Made by a program: the position numbers and the translations under genes | In this document: piece after piece, positions 268 to 16,100 of the stretch | Layout of the letters: each line of letters opens with the position of its first letter | Numbering within the stretch: position 1 is the first letter of the stretch | Notes under the pieces: generated by a model | Seen by the model: only the letters and a program-made list of their open reading frames with translations | Database searches by the model: none | Told to the model about the DNA's origin: nothing | Origin: an uncultured Porphyromonas sp. | GTDB lineage: Bacteria; Bacteroidota; Bacteroidia; Bacteroidales; Porphyromonadaceae | Direction: 5' to 3' | DNA: 16,437 nt | Assembly: GCA_945867245.1 (NCBI GenBank) | Contig: CAMBHQ010000006.1 | Coordinates: 1 to 16,437, forward strand

Positions 268-614
268 CAGATAGGCACGTCCTCTCTGATTTTCTCTCAA
301 TATGCTATATGCTGTGTGTCCTTTATTCTGTGAATTGTTCTTGCGTTAAGTGTGTGCGCTATTTTTTGCCTATGGATTGTCTGTGTAAATATTCGGATAG
401 TCGTTGTGTTTTTTCTAATATCCAAAGGCTATAGAGACTATGGGAGGGCCTAGACTACTGAGCTATTCTGCTCTAGACTTTTATTGTGTGGGCATGCTGC
501 TCTAGTGTATCTAGCATGCCGAGCAAGACTAGATGGCTATCGAGGAGACTGAGGGCGTTCTGAGGGAGGGGGCGTTGATCGTGCCGTGGTGATGTGTCCG
601 CTAGAAACGAAAAA
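268..614. other. Intergenic stretch without a recognisable gene
   Basis: I find no convincing coding frame in about 350 bases. Frames are short and codon choice does not resemble the neighbours. The stretch holds one inverted repeat (491-520, listed separately). The stretch 536-600 is G-rich on the plus strand. There is no clear Bacteroidota promoter for the minus-strand frame at its left end: the nearest candidate, at 423-431, has one base too many between TA and TTTG. Confidence 0.6.
491..520. repeat. Inverted repeat / possible hairpin
   Basis: GGCATGCT at 491-498 is the exact reverse complement of AGCATGCC at 513-520, with a 14-base loop. No T-tract follows on either strand, so it is not a convincing terminator. 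It could be a protein-binding or RNA structure; role unknown. Confidence 0.5.
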
Positions 615-620
615 TGCCCG

Positions 621-712
621 CCTATTAGGCGAGCATTTGGCGACCTATTAGGCGGGCAAGTGGCCGCCTATTAGGCGGACGATCGTCGATCTACTAGGTG
701 GCCGATCGGTGG
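621..712. repeat. Tandem array of four 23-bp units with a conserved near-palindromic core
   Basis: The 11-base core CCTATTAGGCG begins at 621, 644 and 667, and a degenerate copy (TCTACTAGGTG) begins at 690. The spacing is exactly 23 bp each time. The remaining 12 bases of each unit vary. The core is nearly palindromic (CGCCTATTAGGCG), so each unit can also fold. Units 1 and 2 form a longer hairpin: TGCCCGCCTA at 615-624 pairs with TAGGCGGGCA at 649-658. From memory, Porphyromonas gingivalis carries MITEs called BrickBuilt with 23-nt tandem units. Period and host fit, but sequence identity was not checked. Confidence 0.8.
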
Positions 713-720
713 GTTTTATA

Positions 721-811
721 GTGGTCGGTGGTCGGTATGCAGTGGCTAGTATGCAGTGGCTAGTATGCAGTGGCTAGTATGCAGTGGCTAGTATGCAGTG
801 TTCGGTGGCTG
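721..811 (+). repeat. Heptanucleotide tandem array, 13 units in phase
   Basis: Thirteen consecutive 7-base units with no phase slip, all beginning GT: variants GTGGTCG (twice), GTATGCA (five times), GTGGCTA (four times), then GTGTTCG and GTGGCTG. The alternation of GTATGCA and GTGGCTA gives an apparent 14-bp repeat over 735-797. The same heptads in inverted orientation form the array at 1028-1097. It is non-coding in appearance. Confidence 0.85.
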
Positions 812-893
812 GCGCACGCTAGGTCTAGTGTCCCTAGTAGCCCTAGGCCCACTAGAATACTAGTACTAGTATGGCGGGCTTAAGCCCGCCATA
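803..893. repeat. Long direct repeat, copy 1, ending in a perfect palindrome
   Basis: This 91-bp segment is repeated at 913-1022. The two are identical apart from an 18-bp insertion and one extra G in the second copy. The copy is rich in CTAG and contains ACTAGTACTAGT at 858-869 apart from one base. It ends in a perfect 24-bp palindrome at 870-893 (inner half TGGCGGGCTT, then AAGCCCGCCA). The palindrome could form a strong hairpin on either strand. Confidence 0.85.
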
Positions 894-912
894 CCAAGAA
901 CTGCCCCCTGGG

Positions 913-1022
913 CGGTGGCTGGCGCACGCTAGGTCTAGTCTGGCTAGTATCACTAGTGTCCCTAGTAGCCCTAGGCCCACTAGGAATACTAGTACTAGTG
1001 TGGCGGGCTTAAGCCCGCCATA
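913..1022. repeat. Long direct repeat, copy 2, with 18-bp insertion
   Basis: Second copy of the 803-893 element. After the shared GGTCTAGT it carries 18 extra bases (starting CTGGCTAGT) that are themselves CTAG-rich, then returns to the same sequence. The palindrome TGGCGGGCTT/AAGCCCGCCA at 1001-1020 is intact. Together with the inverted heptad arrays on both sides (721-811 and 1028-1097), the two copies make a symmetrical block of about 375 bp that looks like a miniature element or a repeat accretion. No transposase is present. Confidence 0.85.
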
Positions 1023-1027
1023 GCAAG

Positions 1028-1097
1028 CACCGACCACCGCCCACTGCCTACTAGCCACTAGCCACTGCCCACTGATCACTAGCCACTGCTCACTACC
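1028..1097 (-). repeat. Heptanucleotide tandem array, 10 units, overlapping the stop codon of the next gene
   Basis: Ten uninterrupted 7-base units on the plus strand, mostly CACTAGC, CACTGCC, CACTGCT or close variants (first two CACCGAC and CACCGCC). These are the complement of the GTGGCTA heptads at 721-811. The last unit, CACTACC at 1091-1097, contains the TAG stop (1093-1095) and final Trp codon of the DUF6122 gene. In the transcript, the array therefore starts in the stop codon. Confidence 0.85.
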
Positions 1098-1428
1098 ACA
1101 GCATCCCATCCTGCCAGTCGGTGAGCATGTGCCAGCTGAGACCGACAGCGACGGCCCGCCACCACCATGCGAGGCCGAGGCGCTCGTAAGGGACGAAGCA
1201 GGCCACTACATACAAGGCTATCATCGGATACGTGTGTAGGGGATGGAAGCCTATGCTCATCCTATTGGGGTCGAAGATAGGCGTCGCCAGTAGATGGTCC
1301 AGGTCCACGAGCATCGTTAGGAGCATCACGATATAGGCTGTGCGCATACGATGACGCCCCCATAGGATTCGCCCCCATAGGAGCGGTACTATCAGATGGC
1401 ATCCGTAGTGGACTAGGGTTTGGAGCAT
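1093..1428 (-). CDS. DUF6122 family small integral membrane protein
   Basis: A 111-aa hydrophobic protein. The first residues (MLQTLVHYGCH) and a block near residues 40-70 (MLVDLDHLLATPIFDPNR followed by SIGFHPLHTYP) match what I remember of DUF6122, a Bacteroidota family sometimes labelled putative metal-dependent hydrolase. Conserved residues are His and Asp (HY..H, DLDHLL, FHPLH, HMLTD), consistent with a membrane-bound metal site, but no activity is established. About three or four membrane segments are likely. It starts 15 bp after the HAD-thioesterase stop, probably in the same transcript. A run of seven C's in mRNA sense (1431-1437 on the plus strand as G's) occupies the usual ribosome-binding position. 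The stop codon TAG lies inside a heptanucleotide repeat. Confidence 0.85.
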   Translation of the reverse strand: MLQTLVHYGCHLIVPLLWGRILWGRHRMRTAYIVMLLTMLVDLDHLLATPIFDPNRMSIGFHPLHTYPMIALYVVACFVPYERLGLAWWWRAVAVGLSWHMLTDWQDGMLW

Positions 1429-1443
1429 ACGGGGGGGCGTGGC

Positions 1444-2682
1444 TTAGCGCTTTTTGATGATGCTATTGAGGACACGTGCCGTGTGGATGAGCTTGCCCGA
1501 GCGCTGTGAGTAGACCTCGACGCTCCAGACGTGCGTGCTACGGCCCTGATGCATGATGCTGGCCTTGCCGACCATCACATCGCCTGCCATAGCACTGGCT
1601 ACGTGGTTGCCACTGACCTGAGCGCCGACCTGCATCTCGCCCTCCTCGAGGAGCATCACCGAGCCGAGTCCGGCCAGAGTCTCGGCGAAGGCGAGGTTCG
1701 CCCCGCCGTGGATGATACCTAGGGGCTGTGCTGTGCGCTGGTCCACGGGCATTGTCCCCTCGACGTAGCCCTTGGCGAGGTCTGTGCAGAGGATGCCGAG
1801 GTTCTCCATCAGCGTGCCAGGGAATAGTGCATTGACCTGCTCGACGGTGTAGGGGGCTTCCTCTCGGGCATCGAAGACGTGCTTGCGCAGTAGATGCGCT
1901 ACGCCGTCCTCGTCGTTGCTCTTGGTGACGTAGTCGGCACAGCTCTTGATGGCTTCGCGGGCGTTGCTCATAGCCACTCCGAGGCCTGCGAATTGTATCA
2001 TCTCGAGGTCGTTGTAGCTATCGCCCACGGCTATCAGTTCGCTGCGGTCGTAGTCGAGTCGCTCGAGGAGGCGCTGTAGGGCTACGCCCTTATTGATGCC
2101 TGTGGGGACGAGCTCTAGGAAGGCGGGGTCGCTGGTGAAGGCATCCACACGTCCGGCGAAGCGCTGTCGAGCGATGGGTACGAGGGCTTCGATGGCCTTG
2201 GGGTCTCCGACGATAAGGCACTTGGGCAGGCCACTAGGCACTTCGTCGACGAAGCTCTGTACCCTGCGTGCGGGCATTATGGTGAGGGCCATCTCCTTGT
2301 GTACGAATGGGTCGTCGGGGTCCTCGGTGAGAATCTCTCTGTCTGTATAGGTGAGGATATTGAGCTTGTGCTCTCGTGCTAGGTCGTAGAGTTCGGGAAT
2401 GATTTCCTCGGGGAGGGTATTACGGCTGATGGCTGTGTTCATAGCCCGAGCATTGTAGACGAGTCCGCCGTTGTAAGGGAGGACATATCCGCTGTATTTG
2501 GCGAGCTCTAGGGCCTCGGCCAGATGTAGTAGCCCAGGTGTAGGGCGCCCCGAGGCAATGATGACACGCATGCCGTAATCACGCTGGGCACGTATGAGGG
2601 CCTCGCGAACGCCCTCGGTAAGCTGTAGTTGGCTATTGACGAGCGTGCCGTCTACGTCAAGAGCGATAATCTTGTATTTCAT
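1444..2682 (-). CDS. Cof-type HAD phosphatase fused to a MenI-like hotdog thioesterase
   Basis: A two-domain protein of 412 aa. Residues 1-270 are a Cof/YidA-type HAD phosphatase: motif I DVDGT with D9 and D11, motif II S44 in IIASGR, motif III K198, motif IV GDSYND with D221 and D225. The cap region lies between motifs II and III. Residues about 280-412 are a PaaI/YdiI-like hotdog thioesterase: it has EGTMPVDQRTAQPLGIIHGG with H325, then E334 in FAET, where E. coli MenI (YdiI) has its catalytic Glu, and HVASAMAGDVMVGKA. Such thioesterases release 1,4-dihydroxy-2-naphthoate from its CoA ester in menaquinone synthesis. The joining of the two activities in one chain is the notable point. The HAD substrate cannot be read from sequence. 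Located 40 bp after the nicotinamidase-like gene and 15 bp before DUF6122, likely one operon. Both halves look intact. Confidence 0.9.
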   Translation of the reverse strand: MKYKIIALDVDGTLVNSQLQLTEGVREALIRAQRDYGMRVIIASGRPTPGLLHLAEALELAKYSGYVLPYNGGLVYNARAMNTAISRNTLPEEIIPELYDLAREHKLNILTYTDREILTEDPDDPFVHKEMALTIMPARRVQSFVDEVPSGLPKCLIVGDPKAIEALVPIARQRFAGRVDAFTSDPAFLELVPTGINKGVALQRLLERLDYDRSELIAVGDSYNDLEMIQFAGLGVAMSNAREAIKSCADYVTKSNDEDGVAHLLRKHVFDAREEAPYTVEQVNALFPGTLMENLGILCTDLAKGYVEGTMPVDQRTAQPLGIIHGGANLAFAETLAGLGSVMLLEEGEMQVGAQVSGNHVASAMAGDVMVGKASIMHQGRSTHVWSVEVYSQRSGKLIHTARVLNSIIKKR

Positions 2683-2722
2683 ATATGATATAAGCGCAGA
2701 GCGGGGAGATTTGTTTGTCAGC

Positions 2723-3229
2723 CTAGGGCTTGTTTATCCACGCGATACCCTCCTCGAGCCGTTGGATGCGTTCGCGGGGGATGGCGACGAGGAGGTCAGC
2801 CTCACTGGTGGCGACGCAGTAGTCGCCCGCTAGTCCTGCTAGGTAGATGCGCTCGGCAGCGAGGAGTGGCTCGGGGATGTCTTGGGCGAAGGCGCTGTAG
2901 GCGTCGCGCTCGGCTGTCGTGGCCTTCTCTAGGAGGCAGAGCCCTTTGCCCTGTGCGTGTAGCTGTGCCACGGCTAGGGCTATGGCCGGCTCTAGGGCTG
3001 CGCCCACGGTATAGCGGACGCAGTGCGGAGGCCAGGGCCCGCCCTGCTGAACGAAGCTACAATGGTCTAGGGGGTGCTGGTCCATGGTGATATAGATAGC
3101 GTCGTACTCGTCCTTGTGGTCGAGCATCCATTGGGCTAGCCACTGCATCGCCTGGCTCGCCTCTGGCACGGCTAGACTACCGCTAACGAAGTCTACCTGC
3201 GGGTCGATAATTAATAGGATGTTACTCAT
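2723..3229 (-). CDS. pncA: Nicotinamidase / isochorismatase-family hydrolase (PncA-like)
   Basis: A 168-aa protein matching nicotinamidase, which converts nicotinamide to nicotinic acid and ammonia for NAD salvage in the cytoplasm. The catalytic triad is D9 (IDPQVDF), K102 (LEKATTAERDAYSAF) and C138 (LAGDYCVATS). The metal ligands are D50 and H52 (MDQHP) and H69 (WPPHC). The KxTxxxxDAYSAF context is typical of PncA rather than other cysteine hydrolases. It is shorter than E. coli PncA (about 213 aa), mainly at the C terminus. I place the start at ATG 3229, because the frame upstream of it runs through the tRNA gene and its terminator and has no protein-like character. The promoter box ends only 7 bases before this ATG, suggesting a leaderless or nearly leaderless mRNA. 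It heads a probable operon with the HAD-thioesterase and DUF6122. Confidence 0.85.
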   Translation of the reverse strand: MSNILLIIDPQVDFVSGSLAVPEASQAMQWLAQWMLDHKDEYDAIYITMDQHPLDHCSFVQQGGPWPPHCVRYTVGAALEPAIALAVAQLHAQGKGLCLLEKATTAERDAYSAFAQDIPEPLLAAERIYLAGLAGDYCVATSEADLLVAIPRERIQRLEEGIAWINKP

Positions 3230-3236
3230 AGTAGTG

Positions 3237-3244
3237 CAAAGGTA
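3237..3244 (-). promoter_or_regulatory. Bacteroidota -7 promoter box for the pncA-like operon
   Basis: The minus strand reads TACCTTTG, an exact match to TAnnTTTG. No TTG is found about 20 bp upstream, so only the -7 element is clear. The box ends 7 bases before the ATG. The 21 bases at 3237-3257 recur exactly at 4670-4690 before the amidase gene. Confidence 0.6.
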
Positions 3245-3258
3245 GTGATAATAGTGGG

Positions 3259-3288
3259 GCGGGCAGAGCCCGCAGTGGTCAGTGGCCA
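3259..3288. repeat. Palindrome plus two heptad repeat units
   Basis: GCGGGC at 3259-3264 and GCCCGC at 3268-3273 form a hairpin with a 3-base loop, echoing the GGCGGGC/GCCCGCC palindromes at 870-893 and 1001-1020. It is followed in phase by GTGGTCA (3275-3281) and GTGGCCA (3282-3288), members of the heptanucleotide family. It lies between the tRNA terminator and the pncA-like promoter. Confidence 0.6.
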
Positions 3289-3326
3289 CAAAACAAAGAA
3301 GCGAGCACCGTGTGGTACTCGCTTCT
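3286..3326 (-). terminator. Rho-independent terminator of the tRNA-Val gene
   Basis: On the minus strand AGAAGCGAG pairs with CTCGCTTCT, extended after one mismatch by ACC/GGT (3297-3326). It is followed by TTTGTTTTGTG (3286-3296). It begins only 4 bases past the 3' end of the tRNA. Confidence 0.8.
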
Positions 3327-3330
3327 CGGG

Positions 3331-3405
3331 TGGGCCCAATAGGATTCGAACCTATGACCCCCTGCTTGTAAGGCAGGTGCTCTAAACCAGCTGAGCTATA
3401 GGCCC
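3331..3405 (-). tRNA. tRNA-Val (anticodon TAC)
   Basis: Reading the minus strand, all four arms fold. The acceptor GGGCCTA pairs with TGGGCCC (one G-U); the D arm is GCTC/GAGC; the anticodon stem CCTGC/GCAGG encloses loop CTTACAA, giving anticodon TAC (reads GUA, valine). The T arm ATAGG/CCTAT encloses TTCGAAT, and the discriminator base is A. The length is 75 nt. The next bases are CCC, so the CCA tail is not encoded. It has its own promoter and terminator. Confidence 0.95.
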
Positions 3406-3424
3406 CTTTCGTTCTTTTGCACTG

Positions 3425-3455
3425 CAAAGGTAATACAAGTATTTGACATACGCAA
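3425..3455 (-). promoter_or_regulatory. Bacteroidota promoter of tRNA-Val
   Basis: The minus strand carries TTG at 3453-3455, then exactly 20 bases, then TACCTTTG at 3425-3432. This fits both elements of the Bacteroidota -33/-7 promoter. The mature tRNA begins 20 bases downstream of the box. Confidence 0.8.
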
Positions 3456-3471
3456 GCATTCGGAGCAAAGT

Positions 3472-3500
3472 TTTTAAGGGCGAGCCTAGGCTTATTCGCC
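3472..3500 (-). terminator. Probable terminator of the amidase gene
   Basis: On the minus strand GGCGA and TCGCC (3479-3500) enclose a second stem AGCC/GGCT, followed by a short A/T-rich run (TTAAAAAC, 3472-3478). It abuts the amidase stop codon and sits just upstream of the tRNA promoter, separating the two units. Confidence 0.5.
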
Positions 3501-4633
3501 TAAGACACTCTGCCCGAGCGCTTACCGCCTACGTATTCGATGATAAAACAATCCTTGTAATACTTGCTTACCTTACGTCTTAGGCTACGTGCCTCGGCTA
3601 AGTCCTTCGTTCCCCCGACCATGTAGACCCATACCTTGCCTAGGCGCTCACGGCGTACAGGCATACCCAGACGGGCGAAGCGTCGGTCCTGTGTGTCGAT
3701 ACGCTCGGTATCCGTCGTAATCTGCACGCGGTAGAGGCTCTTGCCTCGGGCTTGTCGCTCGCTGGTTGCGCCCTTGCGCCCCGAGGCTTGACTACTCCTC
3801 GTACTGCTGTCGTCTAGCTCCTCGGCCGTCTCTCGGCTCTCCTGACTAGCCTCGCGCCCCTCGACATCGCGCCCGAGGTAGAACTTGCTGAAGGCACGTG
3901 CCAGCGCCTCTGCTATCTCGCTCTGCCCGCTGCTACTGCCCATATACTCGGCATCACGTCTATTGCTGATGAAGCCTATCTCGGTGAGGATGCTGGGCAT
4001 AGCGCTCTGGCTCAGCACCCAGAAGGCATCCTGACGTACGCCACGACTACGGAGGCCCTTGCGCTTGTACTGCGCCTCTACGAAGGTCGCCATATCAATG
4101 CTGCGCTGTAGGTAAGCCTCCTGCATCACATCAAACATGATATAGCTCTCGGCGCTGCTGGGGTCGAAGCCCTTGTATATGGTCTGGTAGTTGTCCTCGA
4201 GGAGCATCGCCTTATTCTCGCGCATGGCTACGCTGAGGTTGTTGCTCTGCTTGCTAAGCCCGAGTACGTAGGTCTCGGTACCCGAGGCGCTACCACTGCT
4301 ACCGGTGCTGTTGGCGTGAATGCTGATGAAGAGCGAGGCCTTGTGCCTATTGGCGAAGTCGGCACGCGCCTGCAGACCTACGAAGACGTCCCGCTCTCGG
4401 GTGTAGAGGACACGCACGTTGGGGTGCTCGTCCTTAATGCGCTGGCCGAGCTTCTTGGCAATAGCTAGGACGACGTCCTTCTCTCGGTATCCGTGTCCGA
4501 TGGCGCCAGGGTCCTTGCCCCCGTGCCCAGGGTCTATCACTACGGTGAAGCGCCCACCACGGGCGTACAGCTCGTGGCTCAGGCCAAGGCACAGCAAGAG
4601 CATCACGAGTCGGAATATGGTCTGTCGTATCAT
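3500..4633 (-). CDS. N-acetylmuramoyl-L-alanine amidase with C-terminal SPOR domain
   Basis: A 377-aa exported zinc amidase of the AmiA/B/C (Amidase_3) family. It cleaves the bond between N-acetylmuramic acid and the stem peptide during cell separation. A hydrophobic signal segment covers residues about 6-24. The zinc and catalytic residues are all present: H37 in DPGHGG, E51 in REKD, H106 in SIHAN and E218 in LTEIGFISN. After the catalytic domain (to about residue 235) comes a Ser/Glu/Arg-rich linker, then a SPOR-type domain (about 300-377, starting SLYRVQITTD). SPOR domains bind stripped septal glycan, suggesting division-site action. I prefer ATG 4633; a GTG at 4636 would add one residue. 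A promoter box lies 36 bases upstream, and a hairpin terminator follows the TAG stop. It appears to be a single-gene unit. Confidence 0.92.
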   Translation of the reverse strand: MIRQTIFRLVMLLLCLGLSHELYARGGRFTVVIDPGHGGKDPGAIGHGYREKDVVLAIAKKLGQRIKDEHPNVRVLYTRERDVFVGLQARADFANRHKASLFISIHANSTGSSGSASGTETYVLGLSKQSNNLSVAMRENKAMLLEDNYQTIYKGFDPSSAESYIMFDVMQEAYLQRSIDMATFVEAQYKRKGLRSRGVRQDAFWVLSQSAMPSILTEIGFISNRRDAEYMGSSSGQSEIAEALARAFSKFYLGRDVEGREASQESRETAEELDDSSTRSSQASGRKGATSERQARGKSLYRVQITTDTERIDTQDRRFARLGMPVRRERLGKVWVYMVGGTKDLAEARSLRRKVSKYYKDCFIIEYVGGKRSGRVS

Positions 4634-4669
4634 CACAGGTATATATCTACAGCATCTATTTAGTCCCTA

Positions 4670-4677
4670 CAAAGGTA
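4670..4677 (-). promoter_or_regulatory. Bacteroidota -7 promoter box for the amidase gene
   Basis: The minus strand reads TACCTTTG, exact for TAnnTTTG, leaving an untranslated leader of about 30 bases before the start. No TTG lies about 20 bp upstream. The 21-bp sequence including this box (4670-4690) is identical to 3237-3257. Confidence 0.6.
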
Positions 4678-4686
4678 GTGATAATA

Positions 4687-4707
4687 GTGGTCAGTGGCTA
4701 GTGGTCG
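4687..4707 (+). repeat. Heptanucleotide repeat, 3 units
   Basis: GTGGTCA, GTGGCTA and GTGGTCG run in phase. This is the same family as 721-811, here lying directly upstream of the amidase promoter box and next to the hairpin at 4718-4762. Confidence 0.7.
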
Positions 4708-4717
4708 GGGTATAGAT

Positions 4718-4762
4718 AATGGGCAGTGATTAGTGAGCGCAAGCCACTAATCACTGCCCATT
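4718..4762 (-). terminator. Long perfect hairpin between the lipoprotein and amidase genes
   Basis: 18 bases at 4718-4735 (starting AATGGGCAGTGATT) are exactly reverse-complementary to 4745-4762, with a 9-base loop. It starts 23 bases beyond the lipoprotein stop and is probably its 3' end structure, although the T-tract is weak. Both arms are made of the heptad words CACTAAT and CACTGCC. Confidence 0.6.
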
Positions 4763-4785
4763 AGGCCATTGTTTGTTAGTAAAGT

Positions 4786-6582
4786 CTACTCAGGCAAACT
4801 AGACCATACTACGTTGTAGCCAAAGTCCTGAGCACCAAATTTCGTTGCACCCTCATTACTAAATCTACCTGAATAGCCACCAGCGTAGATTGTATATATG
4901 AGTCGGCCGGCATAACTGCGTCCCTTACCTAGGGTGATGGTCTGCTTGCGTGTCTGCCTCGTAGGCTCGTCGTAGCGGGGCAGATAGGCTATGAACTTCA
5001 GGGTATAGGGGAGGTCCCATTTGGGTTGGGGTAATTGAGGATGTTCGAATTTCTCCCAAGCGAGCTTATTGCCACGTACGCGGTAGAGCTTAATAGAGTC
5101 TAGCTTACGATACAGGGTCGTTGCAGGCTCCTTGGCGTCGAGAAGCTCCTTTAGGTCATTCGTCCATAGTCCTACGGCCAGTACCTTTTTCGGTGCTTTG
5201 TCCCAAGGGGCGACGGTCGTGCTTGTTTGGGATTCATCACCTGTGGTAGGGAGTGTGGGGTCTAAGGGTTTTACGGGGAACTCACTGATGGGGCGCTCCT
5301 CAGTCCAGTAGCAACCTTTCGTCCCAGGATACTTTGGGTCTTGGCCGACATCATCGTAGTCTTTGTCCACCGTTAGGTAGGTGTCGAAGGAGGTCTCTAG
5401 CTCAAACTGAGCACTGGTACTGCTACCTTCCTCCGAAGCGACCCACAGGTTGAGGATGCCCTGCTTGGCGTTGGCTGCAGCTACAGCCGCAGAGGGTTGC
5501 TCTAGCGTGTTGTATCGTGTGCCCTTGGGCTCTATGGTCGGTATCTCTATGTCGTGCGTCTTCGTCGCTACGAAGGGGATACCCTCTTTAGCGAAGTCGA
5601 AGTAGCCGTCTTTGACCCCTCTCAGCACTCCGCCAATAGGCTCCAGATAAGCTCTGTTCCCAGTGATGCGCTTAGCCTCGGCGAGGAGAGCCTGACGGTC
5701 TGCCTCTAGCTGCTGAGGATTGTAGTAGGGATACGTTGGGTCGGTATAGCGTGAGTATATGCCTAGCGCGGGTTCCCCTGGATCTAGCTTCTTGGTGGCG
5801 GCTGTCAGTAGGTTGTAGTCCGTATCGATATAGCTGATTAGGCGTAATACAGAGCCACGTGGACTGAAGGTCCCAGTAGAGACTATCCCCTTGTAGGGGG
5901 TAGCGGAGCCTGGATTGTTTTTGCTGACAGAGATACGTAGCTTATCGAAGGTGTACACCGCTGGTATCTGCTCTATCCCCTGCTGCTGTGCGTACTCGCT
6001 CTTGAGGTAGTCTTTGTGGTCCGAGGCGCGCTCTGGGGTAGTGATGCTCAGGCGTAGCGTCTCGGGGTCGAAGGTAAACGTTTGTCCTGCAGCACCGCTT
6101 TTGCCGAATAGGAGTCCTGATAGGTATATATCGTTGTTGGCGAGCAGGGCCTCGTCGAGGATGCGTATGTTTTGCTTATTAATGCGCAGGCGGTACCTAG
6201 CAGGTGCGCCAGGGTTACTGCCGGTCTGGTCGCTCACGACAGTCCACTTTAGCTGTCCTACATAGAGGGGCTTGGTCTGGCTTGCAGAGCGTACTATGGT
6301 CCATATACTCAGCTCACTACCTATCTGTAGGCGCAGGCGGAAGGCCCCATTCTGGCTGTAGGGCGAGGCATCGGCTGTGTTGGCTCCTACGAGGTCCCAG
6401 CTAAGGGCGCGTGGGCTTTCGCCTGCATTTAGTGTTAGTTCGCCCTCTAGGGAGAGGTTACCGCTACCGCTGTACTGCTCCTGTGTGGGCTGTATGAGGC
6501 TGTCTTTCTCTTGGCTACAGGCACCTAGTACCATGGCGGCGCCTAGCATCATAGCGTATAGTCCGAGGCTAAATCTTTTCAT
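4786..6582 (-). CDS. Large secreted lipoprotein of unknown function
   Basis: A 598-aa protein with a clear lipoprotein signal: a charged start MKRF, a hydrophobic core, and lipobox LGAC with Cys22. The residues after Cys (SQEKD) are acidic/charged, which in Bacteroidota can act as a surface-export signal; surface display is inference. The first 180 residues (a short hydrophobic strand pattern, then SLEGELTLNAGESPRALSW) and the regularly beta-rich C-terminal part (YAGRLIYTIYAGGYSGRFS) are compatible with fimbrillin-like or other beta-sandwich surface proteins. I recognise no definite domain. A proline/threonine-rich segment lies around 430-460. The gene begins 24 bp after a 56-aa gene and is probably cotranscribed from the promoter at 6823-6830. 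It ends with TAG followed by a long hairpin. Confidence 0.85.
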   Translation of the reverse strand: MKRFSLGLYAMMLGAAMVLGACSQEKDSLIQPTQEQYSGSGNLSLEGELTLNAGESPRALSWDLVGANTADASPYSQNGAFRLRLQIGSELSIWTIVRSASQTKPLYVGQLKWTVVSDQTGSNPGAPARYRLRINKQNIRILDEALLANNDIYLSGLLFGKSGAAGQTFTFDPETLRLSITTPERASDHKDYLKSEYAQQQGIEQIPAVYTFDKLRISVSKNNPGSATPYKGIVSTGTFSPRGSVLRLISYIDTDYNLLTAATKKLDPGEPALGIYSRYTDPTYPYYNPQQLEADRQALLAEAKRITGNRAYLEPIGGVLRGVKDGYFDFAKEGIPFVATKTHDIEIPTIEPKGTRYNTLEQPSAAVAAANAKQGILNLWVASEEGSSTSAQFELETSFDTYLTVDKDYDDVGQDPKYPGTKGCYWTEERPISEFPVKPLDPTLPTTGDESQTSTTVAPWDKAPKKVLAVGLWTNDLKELLDAKEPATTLYRKLDSIKLYRVRGNKLAWEKFEHPQLPQPKWDLPYTLKFIAYLPRYDEPTRQTRKQTITLGKGRSYAGRLIYTIYAGGYSGRFSNEGATKFGAQDFGYNVVWSSLPE

Positions 6583-6606
6583 CTTCTTTGGCTTGTCTAG
6601 GCATGT

Positions 6607-6777
6607 TTAGTATCCATTACCGAGGAATCCTTCGTCGGTGTAGTCTTCTATTGAGAGGTCGTAGTCCCATTGCGAGCTTAGCTCGAGGGAGGTTGATCTT
6701 AATAGTGATAGCTGGGTGGTCATCGTAAAGGCCTCTATGCGGGGCGCTGTGTAGTTTGTTTTGCTTACTTGTTGCAT
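6607..6777 (-). CDS. Short 56-aa protein upstream of the lipoprotein
   Basis: ATG at 6775-6777 to TAA at 6607-6609 encodes 56 aa. The pattern KTNYTAPRIEAFTM, then TQLSLLRSTSLEL, then an acidic/aromatic Gly-rich tail DYTDEGFLGNGY, matches a type of short protein often seen in Porphyromonas and Bacteroides just ahead of surface lipoprotein genes (typically 'YxxPxIExxxLxxxxxL' and a polar tail). There is no signal peptide and no known activity. The case for reality is the promoter box TATCTTTG 46 bases upstream, the typical family pattern, and the 24-bp spacing to the lipoprotein gene. It could be a regulatory leader peptide or a secreted short protein; both are inference. Confidence 0.7.
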   Translation of the reverse strand: MQQVSKTNYTAPRIEAFTMTTQLSLLRSTSLELSSQWDYDLSIEDYTDEGFLGNGY

Positions 6778-6822
6778 GCGTTGCTACAATATATAGAGTG
6801 CGACTTATTGAGTATTTCTCTG

Positions 6823-6830
6823 CAAAGATA
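6823..6830 (-). promoter_or_regulatory. Bacteroidota -7 promoter box for the 56-aa / lipoprotein operon
   Basis: The minus strand reads TATCTTTG, matching TAnnTTTG, 45 bases before the 56-aa gene. No TTG occurs at the expected -33 position. A run of eight C's on this strand (6854-6861) begins 23 bases upstream of the box. Confidence 0.6.
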
Positions 6831-6853
6831 TAAAATATGTATTAATTGTAGGC

Positions 6854-6861
6854 GGGGGGGG
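6854..6861. repeat. Homopolymer of eight G (C on minus strand) beside a promoter
   Basis: Eight consecutive G's, with two more G's just before after one C. Lying about 23-31 bases upstream of the -7 box of a surface-lipoprotein operon, the tract is where the -33 element would be. Length change by slippage could alter promoter strength. Confidence 0.6.
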
Positions 6862-6947
6862 TAAAATATTGTAACAAGCCAAACTGAATAGGTAGGCCGT
6901 GTGCTATCTCTCTAGAGAGCGATTTAGGGCTCGGATATCTAGAAACA

Positions 6948-6975
6948 GATAAGGGGCGCCTTTGCGCCCCTTATC
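6948..6975 (-). terminator. Terminator hairpin after the DUF2807 gene
   Basis: A perfect 12-bp stem, GATAAGGGGCGC (6948-6959) with its complement at 6964-6975, and a 4-base loop. It lies 40 bases past the DUF2807 stop. On the minus strand it is followed by TGTTTCTAG, a weak T-run. It could work in both directions. Confidence 0.75.
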
Positions 6976-7015
6976 CGAACGATATTATATGCTTGCTAGA
7001 CGCTACTACGTAGCC

Positions 7016-7846
7016 TCAATAAGTCTTAATGGATACGGCTCCCTCACTCTTTTGGGAGGTAACACGTGATGCCTTGCTGTGCTTGAGCTTAGCAGCCCCC
7101 GAGAGCTCGTAGACGAGCTCCGCAACAGGGCCGACTGTGGCCGAAACTGCGCCTTCGCCTTTGATGAAAGCATAGCGTCCGCTTAGCTCCTTGGCCTCTA
7201 GGCTGCCAGCGCCCGACATATTTACCCGTAGGCTATCCACTGTACCACGGAGGAGAAACTTGCTAGCACCCTCGCCCTCTAGGTCTAGGCTGCGCAGGCT
7301 ATCAAGCTCGCAGAGCTCGGTATAGCTGGCGTCCTCTAGGTCTAACGAGAGCATTTGCTGTCCTGCGAACTTGTGCATACGTAGAGAGAGCGCTCTCTCG
7401 CTATGGATATGGGTAATGGGCTGTGTACTCTGTAGTACGAAGCGCAGGCGAGGACTGCCCTTGACGAAACGACCTGAGTAATTGATGTGCAGCGTGCCCC
7501 CTCGGACTTCGGCCGAGAGCTGCTCTAGAGCTGAGCTGTCTAGATACTCTACTCGGAGTGTGTTTTGCGCTCCTTGCTCGACGATAAGGGCGCTGGGGCA
7601 GTTGCTCTCGATGTGCGTAAAGGAGGACGCTAGGGCGAACTCTTTGCTCAAGACGCTATCGCCCGAGAATGCCTCCAGAAAGCCTGCCCCGACCCCTTGG
7701 CCATCGTTATCCAGACTGATACCGTTCTCCTCGATATTAGTTACGAGTTTGGCAATGCTATCGCCACTGCAGCCACTACAGCTCACGCAGCTAAGGCACA
7801 GTGCTCCACAGATGAGCCCGAGAAGTGTGTGTAATGCTTTGTTCAT
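7016..7846 (-). CDS. DUF2807 (head-GIN domain) secreted protein, likely lipoprotein
   Basis: A 276-aa protein. The N terminus has a hydrophobic signal (about residues 5-19) followed by a Cys-rich stretch LSCVSCSGCSGDS, with lipidation possible at Cys20 or Cys23. From about residue 72 it shows the head-GIN/DUF2807 pattern: FTHIESNCPSALIVEQG, then an LRVEY strand, a RGGTLHINYSG strand, and repeating short beta strands with Gly/Ala/Ser turns (MSGAGSLEAKELSG, IKGEGAVSATVG, ELSGAAKLKH). This right-handed beta-solenoid-like family was named as a putative autotransporter adhesin head, but its function in Bacteroidota is not established. The stop is TGA, the only one in the window. It has its own promoter box (7888-7895) and a strong terminator hairpin, so it is probably monocistronic. 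Confidence 0.88.
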   Translation of the reverse strand: MNKALHTLLGLICGALCLSCVSCSGCSGDSIAKLVTNIEENGISLDNDGQGVGAGFLEAFSGDSVLSKEFALASSFTHIESNCPSALIVEQGAQNTLRVEYLDSSALEQLSAEVRGGTLHINYSGRFVKGSPRLRFVLQSTQPITHIHSERALSLRMHKFAGQQMLSLDLEDASYTELCELDSLRSLDLEGEGASKFLLRGTVDSLRVNMSGAGSLEAKELSGRYAFIKGEGAVSATVGPVAELVYELSGAAKLKHSKASRVTSQKSEGAVSIKTY

Positions 7847-7887
7847 AATGAATGATTGTATTGTATGATTAATCTAATATGCAGTAA

Positions 7888-7895
7888 CAAAGTTA
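7888..7895 (-). promoter_or_regulatory. Probable -7 promoter box for the DUF2807 gene
   Basis: The minus strand reads TAACTTTG, matching TAnnTTTG, 41 bases before the ATG. No -33 TTG is seen at normal spacing. Confidence 0.5.
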
Positions 7896-7954
7896 GAGAA
7901 TTATATCCATCTACTCTAGTCCTAGATAAGGGGGGATTCTAGCCCCAGCAGCCC

Positions 7955-7986
7955 CACCGCCCACTAGCCACTGCCCACTGCTCACT

Positions 7987-7989
<3 letters not shown>
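7955..7989 (-). repeat. Heptanucleotide array, 5 units, starting in the metH stop codon
   Basis: Plus-strand units CACCGCC, CACTAGC, CACTGCC, CACTGCT and CACTCTA run in phase. The last contains the metH TAG stop (7987-7989). The end CACTGCTCACT is the same as at the DUF6122 stop (1084-1094). A hairpin GGGG/CCCC (7932-7946) follows further downstream in metH sense. Confidence 0.8.
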
Positions 7990-11679
<3,690 letters not shown>

Positions 11680-11980: not shown

Positions 11981-13114
11981 ATGACAAGAAAAGGTATTGT
12001 AAGAATCTTCGCTGCGCTATCCGCCCTCGCTCTAGTAGCTTGCTCGGGTAGCGACGGCAAGCAAGGCGCAGGGATGGCACAGGCTGGCCCTGCGGAGTAT
12101 AAGCTACTGACAGTACAGACAGGAGACACTGAGCTCGTCAAGCGTTATACCGCTAGCATCAGAGGACAACAGGATGTAGATATCTACCCACAGGTCAGTG
12201 GGGCGCTCACGCGCGTCCTCGTAAGCGAGGGCCAGCAGGTGCGCCGTGGTCAGGCCCTCTTCATCGTGGACCAAGTGCCCTATCAGGCAGCATTAGCACA
12301 GGCCACGGCTAGTGTGCAGTCGGCCGAGGCAGCCCTAGCCACGGCACGTCTCAACCATCAGGCCAAAGAGCGCCTCTATGCCGAGCGCATCATCAGCGAG
12401 GTAGAGCTCTCGCTCAGCCGTAATAGCCTCAGCACCGCTCAGGCAGCAGTGGCACAGGCCAAGGCCGCCCAGCTGAGCGCCCGCAACAACCTCTCCTATA
12501 CCACAGTCGTAAGCCCTGCCGATGGCGTGGTGGGTACCCTGCCTTATCGTCAGGGTACGCTCGTATCGCCTAGCTTGCCGAGCCCACTTACCACGGTATC
12601 GGATAGCCGTGAGATGTATGTTTACTTCTCCCTGAGCGAGAAGCAGCTACTAGCCCTATCCCGCGAGTATGGTAGCCTCGATGCGGCTGTAGCCTCTATG
12701 GGTGCTGCCCGCCTAGAGCTCAGCGATGGTAGCGAGTACAACCACCCAGGCAAGGTAGAGAGCGTGAGCGGTGTGGTAGATGCCAGCACGGGCGCTGCTA
12801 GCCTCAGGGCTAAGTTCCCCAACCCCGACGGCATACTACGCAGTGGCTCTACGGGTAATGTATTGCTGGGCTCTGTACAGAAGGGCGTAATCGTCATCCC
12901 ACAGGGCGCTGCCGTACGCATACAGGACAAGGTACTGGTGTACAAGGTCGTCGATGGCAAGGCCGTATCTACTGTGGTAACGGTAGAGGATGGTGCTAGC
13001 CCCAGCGAATATATCGTGCGTAGTGGGCTCTCAGCAGGTGATGTTATCATTGCCGAGGGCGCAGGTCTAGTGCGCGAGGGCACAGAGGTATCTACGCCTA
13101 AATCTAAGTCTTAG
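11981..13114 (+). CDS. RND efflux membrane-fusion (periplasmic adaptor) lipoprotein
   Basis: A 377-aa AcrA/MexA-family adaptor that links the inner-membrane pump to the outer-membrane channel. The signal peptide ends in lipobox LVAC with Cys21, so it is lipid-anchored. The lipoyl half-motifs are seen in the biotinyl-lipoyl-like stretch (SGALTRVLVSEGQQVRRGQALFIVD is split here as SGALTRVLVSEG, about residues 72-83, and GQALFIVD). These flank an Ala-rich alpha-hairpin (about 95-170, with LAQATASVQSAEAALATA). Then come a beta-barrel (about 190-290) and a membrane-proximal domain (about 300-370, LRSGSTGNVLLG, GLSAGDVIIAEG). The 3-bp gap to the pump gene and the overlap beyond show an operon. No regulator gene (such as TetR/AcrR type) is adjacent in the window. 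Confidence 0.95.
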   Translation: MTRKGIVRIFAALSALALVACSGSDGKQGAGMAQAGPAEYKLLTVQTGDTELVKRYTASIRGQQDVDIYPQVSGALTRVLVSEGQQVRRGQALFIVDQVPYQAALAQATASVQSAEAALATARLNHQAKERLYAERIISEVELSLSRNSLSTAQAAVAQAKAAQLSARNNLSYTTVVSPADGVVGTLPYRQGTLVSPSLPSPLTTVSDSREMYVYFSLSEKQLLALSREYGSLDAAVASMGAARLELSDGSEYNHPGKVESVSGVVDASTGAASLRAKFPNPDGILRSGSTGNVLLGSVQKGVIVIPQGAAVRIQDKVLVYKVVDGKAVSTVVTVEDGASPSEYIVRSGLSAGDVIIAEGAGLVREGTEVSTPKSKS

Positions 13115-13117
13115 CCC

Positions 13118-16100
13118 ATGAAAGGAAACATCTTCATTAAACGCCCCGTACTGGCCATATCGGTATCTATATTGATTATGGTAGTGGGGCTTATATCGCT
13201 CTTTACTCTACCGGTGGAGCAGTATCCGGATATCGCTCCGCCCACTATTAGTGTGAGCGCCAGCTATCCTGGTGCCGATGCCGATGCTGTACTCAATAGC
13301 GTCGTGATGCCCCTCGAGGAGGCAATCAACGGAGTAGAGACTATGATTTACATGACGAGCTCGTCCTCAAACAACGGGACGGCTACGATTACAGTCTACT
13401 TCAAGCAAGGTACCAATGCGGATATGGCCGCGGTGAACGTGCAGAATCGAGTCTCGCGCGCCCAAGCCCTGCTCCCCGCAGAGGTAACCCAGATAGGTGT
13501 GTCTGTCGTCAAGGGTCAGGCAGGCTTCCTACAGGTGAGTGGCCTCAAGAGTACCGACGGACGCTACGACGCTCTATTCCTAGCCAATTACCTTAATATC
13601 AATATTATCCCCGAGCTACAGCGTATCGAGGGGGTAGGTAATGTGCAGCCCTTCGGTAACGCCTACAGCATGCGTATATGGCTAAAGCCAGACCTGATGG
13701 CGCAGTACAAGCTCGTGCCTAGCGACGTGTCGGCAGCACTGGCCCAGCAGAATATCGTGGCCTCGGCCGGTGCTCTGGGGATGGATAGCGAGGCGACATT
13801 CCAATATACGCTCAAGTATAAGGGCCGTCTAACGGACGTCAAGCAGTACGAAGATATCGTCCTGCGTGCCCTGCCCGATGGCAATGTGCTACGTCTGAGA
13901 GACGTGGCGACGATAGAGATTGGCGCTGCCTCCTATGGCTTCAATGGCTTCATCGATGGTAAGCCTGGGGCCAACTGCATGGTCTCTCAGGTGGCTGGTG
14001 CCAATGCCACGGACGTAAACAACAAGATTACGGCCAAGTTAGAGGAGCTAAGTAAAAACTTGCCCGCAGGCGTAGAGATGGTAACGACACATAATACCAA
14101 TGACTTCCTCTATGCCTCTATCTATTCGGTGGTAGAGACTCTGGTCATCGCTATTCTGCTGGTTATTCTGGTGGTGTACTTCTTCCTACAGGACTTCAAG
14201 GCCACTATCATCCCCTCGATTTCGATTATCGTATCGCTGGTAGGGACCTTCTTCTGTCTGGCTGCCGCAGGCTTTAGTATCAACATCCTGACGCTCTTTG
14301 CGCTCGTGCTGGCTATCGGTACGGTGGTGGACGATGCTATCGTCGTGGTGGAGGCCGTACAGGCTAAGTTTGAGGTGGGCTACAAGTCCGCCTACCTAGC
14401 TACCAAGGATGCTATGGGCGACATCACGATGGCTATCATCTCGTGTACGCTCGTCTTTATGGCGGTGTTTATTCCGGTAACGTTCATGGGGGGCACCTCT
14501 GGGGTGTTTTACACTCAGTTTGGCGTTACCATTGCTACGTCTGTAGGTCTGTCGATGATCTCGGCCCTCACGCTCTGCCCTGCCCTCTGCGCCATCATGA
14601 TGCGCCCCGAGGATATGGAGAAGGCCGAGGGCTCTATCGGGGCCCGTGTACGCAAGGCCTATGAAGTGTCTTATAATGCTATCCTCGGCAAGTACAAGCG
14701 TGGCATAGGGGCGCTCATCGGGCGCAAGCCTCTAGTATGGGGCGCTCTGGGCTTGAGTACGATAGCGCTCGTCTATCTGATGGCGACGACCAAGACCGGT
14801 CTAGTGCCACAGGAGGACCAAGGTATGCTGATGGTGAACGTCAGCGCTCAGCCAGGTAGCACCCTCAGCGAGACCGCCAAGATTATGACCGAGGTGGACA
14901 GCCTAATCCGTGCTATCCCCGAGGTTAAGCACGTGTGCCGTATCGATGGCTTCGGGCTCATATCGGGTCAGGGTCCCTCCAATGGTACTTTCTTCATCCG
15001 CCTACAGGACTGGGGCGACCGCCCCGCTGCCGAGCAGGCCTCGACAGCCGTAATAGGCCGTATCATGGCTGCTACTAGCCATATCCGTGGGGCACGTGTC
15101 TTTGCCCTAGAGCCTGGTATGATACCGGGCTATGGTATGGGGAACGCTATTGATATGAGCATACAAGACCGCAATGGGGTGGATATGGGTACCTTCTATC
15201 AGACGACGATGCAGTTCGTGGGCGCACTCAATGCACGGCCCGAGATAGCCGTCGCCTACAGCAGCTACGCCATCAACTTCCCGCAGTATCGTGTGGATAT
15301 AGATGCGGCTCAGGCTATGCGCGCAGGCATCCAGCCCCGCGAAATCCTCTCGACGCTCGGGGCCTACCTCGGGGGCTCGTACGCTAGCAACTACAACCAG
15401 TACGGCAAGGTGCTACGTGTGATGACCCAGGCCTCTGCAGGCGACCGCATCGACGAGGCTGCACTCAATAATATATACGTGCGTAATGGCAACGAAATGG
15501 CCCCTATCGGTCAGTTCGTGCGCCTAGAGCGTATCTCTGGCCCCGAGCAGATGGAGCGCTTCAACCTTTTCGGCTCTATCTCGGCCAATGTAACGCCTGC
15601 CGAAGGCTATTCGACGGGTGAGGCCATGCAGGCCATTAGTGAGGTAGCCGCTCAGACGCTGCCCACGGGCTATAGCTACGAATATGGTGGTATCTCGCGT
15701 GAGGAGAGCCAGCAGGGGGGCAGCCGTACAGCCTTTATCTACGGCCTCTGTATCCTGCTGATATACCTTATCCTGGCCTCGCTCTATGAGAGCTGGCTGG
15801 TGCCCTTGGCGGTAATCTTCTCGGTGCCCTTCGGCATTATGGGTAGCTTCCTCTTCGCTCGTCTGTGGGGCTTCGAGAATAATATCTACCTCCAGACAGG
15901 TGTGATTATGCTCATCGGTCTACTGGCCAAGACGGCTATCCTTATCACCGAGTATGCCTCGGAGCGTCGTCGCCAGGGCCTCGGTATCGTGGAGTCGGCC
16001 CGTGCGGCTGCCGAGGAGCGACTACGCCCTATTCTGATGACCGTAGCGACGATGATTATCGGGATGCTCCCGCTGATGTTTGCCTCGGGTGCAGGGGCCA

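Follow-up and report, generated by a model that had tools for sequence, protein, structure and literature searches.

The cyanobacterial STRR sequences, reported by Mazel et al. in 1990, are said to consist of 7-bp tandem units. Heterogeneous, dispersed heptads of the GGGAATC / GGGGA(C/T)T type are described for Xanthomonas and Nostoc, mostly in intergenic regions and near the end of the upstream ORF; convergent pairs, with the two arrays on opposite strands, number 70 and 75 in two Xanthomonas genomes, the repeats are read as G-quadruplexes, and in two species copies flanked by the same genes vary in length and sequence (Rehm et al. 2015, PMC4692102). According to the same source, heptamer repeats are over-represented in bacteria for no accepted reason. 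The TAACTGA repeats of Beggiatoaceae, Cyanobacteria and five Bacteroidetes are intergenic direct heptads, sometimes mixed with others; in the BOGUAY genome they lie mostly just upstream of start codons, in 169 direct sets and one indirect set (MacGregor 2015, PMC4679880). GTAG-tagged REPs, which are RAYT-linked palindromes of 20–40 bp reported from >80 species in 8 phyla, form HH and TT dimers with the tag outermost in HH, are often found beside the 3' ends of ORFs, and have termini that often give a TAG stop (Di Nocera et al. 2013, PMC3733652). Finally, the BrickBuilt MITE of P. gingivalis is composed of 23-nt tandem units, a leader, a tail and IS5-like terminal repeats (Klein et al. 2015, PMC4596501). 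Our literature searches, which named the genus or phylum only in small part, listed no paper on heptads in Porphyromonas. As to the statement of the initial annotation that no description was known in this kind of bacterium, heptad arrays are on record for other Bacteroidetes (TAACTGA; PMC4679880) and convergent heptad pairs for Xanthomonas (PMC4692102).

The window analysed here is a stretch of 16,437 nt from a draft genome of an uncultured Porphyromonas sp. It contains 8 matches of the pattern GTGRNNRGTGRNNRGTGR against an expected mean of 0.01, a number reached in 0/200 shuffles, so that the heptad arrays first noticed from the sequence alone are real. An array at 721-811 is absent from these 8 matches because of its GTATGCA units (5 of 13) and is called a 14-bp tandem by TRF; its 13 in-phase heptads on the + strand were nonetheless as annotated. 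Where GT alone had been taken as fixed, the constant part proved to be mostly GTGR, with tails drawn from a small set (the six commonest units in paired arms are GTGGTCA, GTGGCTA, GTGATCA, GTGGTCG, GTGGGCA and GTATGCA). The annotation also overlooked that the arrays are oppositely oriented arms. The likeness to STRR, compared here by period alone, is borne out by the 7-bp tandem repeats. With the Xanthomonas type these arrays share heterogeneous 7-bp units, a mostly intergenic location and convergent pairs, but the unit is GGGAATC there and GTGR..R here, and G-tracts of at least three per unit are not found throughout: the commonest units have GG only, while GTGGGCA and GTGGGCG (46 units) have GGG. 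TAACTGA repeats differ in their unit and, in the BOGUAY genome, in lying mostly upstream of start codons and in forming almost only direct sets.

Four elements were delimited in the window. Element A (719..1099, inverted repeat I1) is a composite heptad palindrome, of which 721-811 and 1031-1093 are the two arms; the left arm carries its 13 heptads on the GTGG strand. The core (808..1022; direct repeats D3/D7, inverted repeat I11) contains a GCTGGCGCACGC module as well as CTAG nonamer tracts, and the palindrome GGCGGGCTTAAGCCCGCC occurs in it twice (873-890 and 1002-1019). The right arm (1031..1093, minus strand) has 9 heptads; the array was correctly recognized, its annotated extent of 10 units at 1028-1097 having included partial units. 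The DUF6122 gene ends in a TAG stop codon (1093..1095, minus strand) whose G is also part of the first unit of this arm, so that the codon and the outermost heptad of A have one base in common. A long hairpin is predicted for A on both strands (z = −13.4 and −11.3 versus dinucleotide shuffles). Element B (4687..4763) consists of the three + strand heptads already annotated at 4687-4707 and a short heptad hairpin at about 4717-4763; the stop codon of ORF 4786-6582 is 22 nt away, and the element has fold z-scores of −6.2 (+) and −8.5 (−). Element C is a single arm of five heptads, as counted before, but its position is 7951..7985 on the minus strand instead of 7955-7989; it begins 1 nt past the TAG stop codon of metH (7987..7989, minus strand), and neither a partner arm nor a hairpin was found for it (fold z = +1.4 and +1.6). 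Element D (3259..3288, + strand) is a remnant in which a GCGGGCAGAGCCCGC hairpin module (3259-3273) is followed by two heptads, GTGGTCA GTGGCCA (3275-3288), as annotated; hairpin modules of this kind are present on 7/10 other array-bearing contigs. The claim that all sites are intergenic is nearly right, the exceptions being the one-base overlap of the right arm of A with a stop codon and the end of C at 1 nt from another.

In the whole 1.37-Mb draft, 77 + 57 = 134 three-unit matches were found against 0 + 1 for the reversed pattern. This agrees with a dispersed heptad family between genes, often at gene ends, and excludes the outcome that the initial annotation regarded as refuting, namely arrays at the window sites alone. 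Many intergenic gaps of this bacterium contain mirror-image heptad arrays; paired clusters are between 67 and 426 bp long, and core modules recur across different elements. A scan of 25 congeners gave 0–2 matches in each. Upstream of the amidase gene, the site of element B has 4 GTGR dimers in the source genome (p 0.037), and no GTGR dimer was found there in any of 24 congeners, one of which gave a lag-7 p of 0.037. For metH there was no full-length match in 25 congeners, and a plasmid search with window positions 700-1100 returned no match. The distribution of arrays is uneven: 12 other contigs (148 kb) lack three-unit arrays and have one dimer, in C17. Since arrays are absent from these and dense on others, the draft may combine two close organisms; one 23-bp repeat type, found on 4/12 array-free and 8/11 array contigs, argues for a single species. 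A small contig, L077, contains a heptad element together with a terminase-like gene.

Most arrays are arms of palindromes in which a GTGG array is followed by a core and a CCAC array, and the complete element was shown to comprise a GTGR array and an inverted array separated by a variable core, with the GTG strand outermost on both sides. For arrays of at least three units with neighbours within 200 bp, the source-genome contigs gave 29 +-, 1 -+, 8 ++ and 4 -- pairs, and other phyla gave 16, 0, 4 and 4, respectively. The corresponding counts were 66, 0, 26 and 15 in viral loci and, at gaps of up to 150 in stretches picked around +- matches, 27, 0, 2 and 4 in genome G329. The sole -+ pair of the source genome is the gap separating two adjacent elements in L040. 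Genome-wide, the +- pattern had 101 + 123 matches in G329 and the reversed control 0 + 0. It occurs in 15 of 395 Bacteroidota genomes (including the source genome), the reversed control in 2, where the matches look like same-direction runs; GTGA..TCAC was found in 29/395 and TCAC..GTGA in 0/395. Polarity at three or more units is nearly absolute; when two-unit arrays are admitted, -+ accounts for 4/72 neighbour pairs in the source genome and 2/51 in other phyla.

When inverted pairs were sought without regard to unit sequence, 49 were G-first and none C-first outside viral records, in the source-genome, G329 and other-phyla sets and two G021 contigs, which were preselected by GTG-type queries, and in G001 and G025 stretches, which were not. 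In viral records the ratio was 78 to 6; three of the six C-first cases are copies of a single AGT-first element with balanced G and C, one has a single common word, and two (L373 and L374) are real exceptions with other units. Precedence of the G-rich strand in every heptad family was rejected. The idea that stops confined to the outer strand explain the polarity holds for the listed G329 units and fails in the source genome, whose units hold stops on the other strand too (TGACCAC, TAGCCAC, TGATCAC); GGGAATC, without a stop codon on either strand, also counts against it. Exact arm complementarity is not a general rule either: the arm-to-arm unit match in the source genome is 0.588 versus 0.633 for swapped arms (994/1000 permutations reach the observed value), whereas it exceeds that of swapped arms in G329 (2/1000 permutations) and other phyla (0/1000).

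These regularities bear on the view that the arrays are ordinary microsatellites, produced by 7-bp polymerase slippage and tolerated in spacers with neither role nor mobility. Such a view could draw on the bacterial heptamer excess, for which a polymerase-footprint explanation has been proposed (PMC4692102), and on the varying unit counts at the same sites among related species. Slippage, suggested also in the initial annotation, agrees with unit turnover; alone it yields neither one-polarity inverted pairs nor stop-codon anchoring, and we consider simple microsatellites very unlikely.

Stop anchoring was defined as an element edge at most 15 nt from the codon, overlaps included. Such edges were found at 31/33 stops and 3/25 starts in G329, at 45/56 and 19/54 in viral loci, and at 11/15 and 4/9 in other phyla. 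In the source genome the values are 16/37 and 5/41, the remaining 21/37 stop flanks being farther away. In G329, 15 overlaps are at −18, −11 or −4, so that the stop coincides with the TGA of unit three, two or one, respectively. Elements thus tend towards stop codons, and a heptad often provides the stop. The likeness to GTAG REPs lies in palindromic structure, an outermost tag, a position next to ORF 3' ends and stop supply, the last two being clear in G329 and viral loci. The differences are arms made of heptad arrays, an almost exclusive outward-tag arrangement and no need for RAYTs; instead of a GTAG (or CGTC) tag on a 20–40 bp palindrome, the arms open with GTGR arrays. The 39 source-genome elements lie between tandem (25), convergent (6) and divergent (8) genes, against a background of 40, 10 and 11, with neither enrichment between convergent nor depletion between divergent genes. 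In viral record L371 an element lies between tail genes, and an element in a viral record separates a tail gene from a tape-measure gene, both on one strand. A few elements adjoin TAnnTTTG motifs, which we take to be promoter-like.

Strongly folding hairpins predicted at gene ends could be intrinsic transcription terminators. However, the T run that follows the GC-rich hairpin of a terminator was not found: of the 14-nt flanks beyond the last heptad, 1/52 in the source genome and 3/54 in G329 contain TTTT, and the flank T fraction is 0.24 and 0.30, respectively, versus 0.23 and 0.27 in the same sequences as a whole, a count that looked directly outside the heptads and ignored hairpin modules farther out. 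Elements between divergent genes (8/39) and between the same-strand tail and tape-measure genes also speak against termination, which we regard as highly improbable.

The reading we prefer, and to which we give about an even chance, is that the tandem-heptad arrays form the arms of REP-like palindromes at gene ends, which act on mRNA or translation. Seven hand-picked paired elements of the source genome have fold z-scores from −3.9 to −13.4, and folding prediction gives the elements examined long, imperfect hairpins whichever strand is taken. Transcribed behind a stop codon, an element would constitute a stop-plus-stem-loop unit in the mRNA, for which E. coli REPs within 15 nt of a stop provide a precedent (PMC12306157). 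By analogy with these, the hairpin might slow terminating ribosomes, shield 3' ends or limit read-through. Units could turn over via 7-bp slippage and exchange among dispersed copies, selection presumably keeping the inverted pair and not a particular sequence. A DNA cruciform fits the anatomy equally well.

In one other genus, four orthologous sites were compared across four related species; lag-7 periodicity had p ≤ 0.02 in 15/15 testable segments, against 6/334 control tiles. By eye, the units are of GTGATGC types in some species and of GTAGTGC/GTATTTC types in others; unit counts also differ, and fold z-scores range from +0.8 to −5.1. These sites were shown to retain the heptad design while units get replaced. 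In the g109 stretches, lag 7 was not the top lag over the few spacers left by simple ORF calls. Such replacement is relevant to the possibility that the arrays are DNA-level landing sites for a heptad-reading protein that needs convergent orientation, in chromosome folding, replication or promoter control. The fixed orientation, kept although exact arm matching is not conserved in the source genome, and the few elements beside promoter-like motifs would suit such a protein; units that differ between species, even between orthologous sites, are hard to reconcile with a conserved binder, and we judge this very unlikely.

Heptads, convergent pairs and stop proximity were already known piecemeal. 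The cross-phylum polarity rule and unit replacement look new; for the Xanthomonas type, the consulted parts of PMC4692102 make no mention of stop-codon supply, of such a rule or of replacement. With the same layout in unrelated bacteria and in virus records, this looks like a general but barely described gene-end punctuation. More tentatively, and with somewhat less than even confidence, we suggest that heptad palindromes are a bacteria-wide class of gene punctuation of chromosomes and phages, in which hosts retain the stop site, the step of 7 nt and the polarity, with the GTG/AGT strand outermost, while exchanging units; if so, there must be some shared process by which 7-nt units are installed and renewed directionally. 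Templated or fold-back synthesis from one strand would be a candidate, comparable to the one-strand renewal of telomere repeats. Near-absolute polarity, the lean towards stops and unit replacement at fixed sites raise a testable question: what sees the design and not the sequence? Should ribosomes or mRNA ends be the target of the hairpins, these would represent an unrecorded post-transcriptional device common to many bacteria, unrelated to each other, and to phages; otherwise, repeats may be written by a process that works on one strand.

A less probable but still credible alternative is that the elements are selfish and dispersed, REP/BIME- or MITE-like and without host function, an enzyme inserting heptad-ended hairpins at gene ends because they are harmless there, and unit changes being drift. 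Expansion is indeed genome-specific (134 matches versus 0–2 per congener), core modules are reused, elements occur with the terminase-like gene of L077 and between the tail genes of L371, and REPs show equal placement (PMC3733652). However, no Y1 transposase (PF01797) was found in the source genome (G000), which is 54.6% complete, or in G232, G236, G365, G381 and G337, five carriers with a listed completeness of 99%, and PF01797 is present in 15/20 genomes with a pair match versus 14/20 without; a RAYT/REP transposase as a requirement was rejected on these grounds. Orthologous sites, moreover, are filled in four species despite differing units. A MITE with target duplication is unsupported: no flush 4–6 bp direct repeats were found in 26 source-genome and 27 G329 paired elements, and 3-bp ones were found in 0 and 2, respectively. 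BrickBuilt resembles the elements as an intergenic tandem-repeat element with inverted ends and differs in its body of 23-nt units, the arms here having period 7. The source genome does have 23-bp palindromic repeats; those at 612-703 of the window are separate from the heptads, and the 23-bp type recurs elsewhere in the genome.

The heptad arrays that the initial annotation had placed in the window were borne out by direct reading to within a few bases, and a strict three-unit pattern gave 8 matches there against 0.01 expected. In the draft genome to which the window belongs (G000; 1.37 Mb, 54.6% complete, the one draft analysed for this organism, with the window as its contig C6), a whole-draft pattern scan found 77 + 57 matches to GTGGNNNGTGGNNNGTGG and 0 + 1 to its reversed form; 25 other genomes of the genus had 0 to 2 pattern matches apiece, family-like ones being confined to G021 and G025. 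A stricter pattern was present in only 1 of 38 genomes of the taxonomic family, namely G000 (18 + 10 matches; reversed control, 3 + 0). The distribution of arrays across G000 contigs is bimodal: they are dense on some, and none of three units occurs on 12 (C2, C8, C9 and C12–C20; 148 kb together). The draft may be mixed, or else the distribution may be regional. In the intergenic sequence of the array-bearing contigs, self-matching is highest at lags of 7, 14 and 21 bases; this was not so for that of the 12 array-free contigs.

Across 11 array-bearing sources (the window and loci L035–L044), 44 array clusters were found, many of them consisting of opposed arms that flank a core and the rest of single arms. 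The core modules are few in kind: GCTGGCGCACGC, a GCGGGC-AGA-GCCCGC hairpin, a GGCGGGCTTAAGCCCGCC palindrome and runs of CTAG-headed nonamers; 23-bp palindromic repeats lie near some cores. A composite element at 719–1099 of the window has its arms at 721–811 and 1031–1093, and nonamer runs at 818–867 and 928–990 form the core between them. The nonamer core is also seen in the congener G021 (L334, 2851–3902), even where the arms differ. Seven hand-picked paired elements of G000 were predicted to fold better than shuffled sequences on both strands (z from −3.9 to −13.4); for the lone arm next to metH no such advantage over shuffles was predicted.

Neighbouring G000 arrays of at least three units and at most 200 bp apart (25 sources) were mostly arranged with the GTG strand outermost on both sides: 29 pairs were outward, 1 reverse and 12 in the same direction (8 ++ and 4 −−). 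The lone reverse case is the gap separating two adjacent elements (L040); with two-unit arrays admitted, the counts were 35 outward and 4 reverse. Scanning a named genome collection with the GTGG pattern (about 0.1 match expected by chance over the collection, by our own estimate) gave at least 119 stretches, the phyla among the matches listed being, as judged from record titles, Planctomycetes, Chloroflexi, Acidobacteria, Cyanobacteria, Bacteroidetes, Firmicutes, Proteobacteria and others. The 80 stretches analysed, for which this pattern was the selection criterion, held 16 outward and 0 reverse pairs (29 and 2 with two-unit arrays). Viral contigs from IMG/VR, which may include host DNA and were selected by the same pattern, gave 109 stretches, with 66 outward and 0 reverse pairs in the 80 analysed. 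In Bacteroidota, 15 of 395 genomes (G000 among them) carry the outward design and 2 the reverse (G278 and G387), G278 carrying both. The 7 reverse matches listed are read as same-direction runs of ACTGAGG-type heptads rather than opposed arms, clearly so for the 4 on G278 contig C92. A second unit type, GTGA..TCAC, occurs in 29 of the 395 genomes, against 0 for TCAC..GTGA, with 123 + 101 matches in G329 alone; a direct check of six genomes confirmed it, the reversed control being 0 in all six. When inverted pairs were scored without regard to unit sequence, 49 were G-first against 0 outside viral records, and 78 against 6 in viral loci, two of these 6 being real exceptions. Heptads were described earlier in Xanthomonas and Nostoc (close to the upstream ORF, with 70 and 75 convergent pairs in two Xanthomonas genomes; PMC4692102) and as TAACTGA repeats (PMC4679880), as was the BrickBuilt element (PMC4596501); in the available parts of a mainly open-access literature, no statement of a cross-phylum polarity rule was found.

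The position of the elements was scored against gene flanks taken from simple ORF calls, an element edge within 15 nt, overlaps included, counting as near. In G329, whose stretches were selected for the presence of paired elements, 31/33 stop flanks were near an element versus 3/25 start flanks; the figures were 16/37 versus 5/41 for G000, 45/56 versus 19/54 for viral loci and 11/15 versus 4/9 for other phyla. In fifteen G329 stop flanks the overlap with the array falls precisely at −18, −11 or −4, so that the TGA within GTGA coincides with the stop codon. In the window, the G of the DUF6122 stop is common to the array and the metH stop lies 1 nt from one. In viral locus L371 an element is flanked by a tail gene and by the ATG of a tape-measure gene, the array starting with the TAG of the former, and on a small G000 contig (L077) an array follows the TAG of a terminase-like gene. 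The latter (1696–3801) resembles a terminase large subunit, and heptad arrays lie between the genes of this contig. REPs, short gene-end palindromes, are reported to supply TAG stops (PMC3733652); heptads as a source of stop codons were not found described in those mainly open-access sources, as far as available.

Unit sequence turns over. Within the genus of the window, G001, G025 and G021 have AGAGATT-like units. In another genus (g109), four species are colinear over some 10 kb, at 73–90% identity; at four spacers G232 has, by eye, GTGATGC-type pairs, and at some of these G184 and G365 have GTAGTGC/GTATTTC types. Lag-7 periodicity (P ≤ 0.02) was found in 15/15 testable segments, a sixteenth (519 bases) being left out, versus 6/334 control tiles; the test is not independent for G232, since the four sites were picked for its pairs. 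Predicted folding at these orthologous sites is uneven (z from +0.8 to −5.1), and at site 3 G184 retains one arm only. Upstream of the amidase gene, the only site testable in the genus of the window, a GTGR dimer was found in 0 of 24 congeners, all of them distant relatives at this locus (42–59% protein identity). Unit replacement at orthologous heptad sites was not found described in the accessible, mainly open-access texts.

Anatomy, position, polarity and turnover are matters of observation; as to mode of action, we infer that hairpins 3′ of stop codons would work at the level of translation or mRNA. Two points favour this reading: position and design persist through changes of sequence, and E. 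coli REPs lying no more than 15 nt from a stop are reported to stall ribosomes and lower translation (PMC12306157). Action as intrinsic terminators is counted against by the absence of T tracts. Mobilisation by RAYT, the Y1_Tnp transposase of REPs, is likewise counted against: Y1_Tnp is present in 15/20 genomes with a pair match versus 14/20 without, and five near-complete carrier genomes lack it. The units listed for G329 have stop codons on the outer strand only, and polarity would be useful there; unlike these, units of G000 have them on both strands. Arm-to-arm unit matching in G000 is below that of swapped arms, a possible sign that perfect palindromes are avoided, as proposed for REP heterodimers (PMC3733652); in G329 and other phyla the opposite was found.

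Other features of the draft were also recorded. Tandem 23-bp palindromic repeats of the CCTA..TAGGCGG type occur on array-bearing and array-free contigs alike (window 612–703; L035, L037, L039–L042, L044; L065, L067, L068, L076), and other 22/23-bp palindromic repeats are found in stretches from most of eleven congeners examined. Contig C17, from the array-free set, is outlying in composition. A repeat some 150 bp long (L066, 5849–6001) is dispersed, with copies on several other G000 contigs; weaker relatives occur elsewhere in the genus. A full-length match to the metH-like gene (window 7987–11679) was found in 0 of the 25 congeners; eight of them gave short B12-domain matches only. At 1444–2682 of the window a HAD-type hydrolase and a 4HBT thioesterase domain are fused in one ORF, and tandem genes for an HlyD-type adaptor and an AcrB-type efflux pump occupy 11981–16324.
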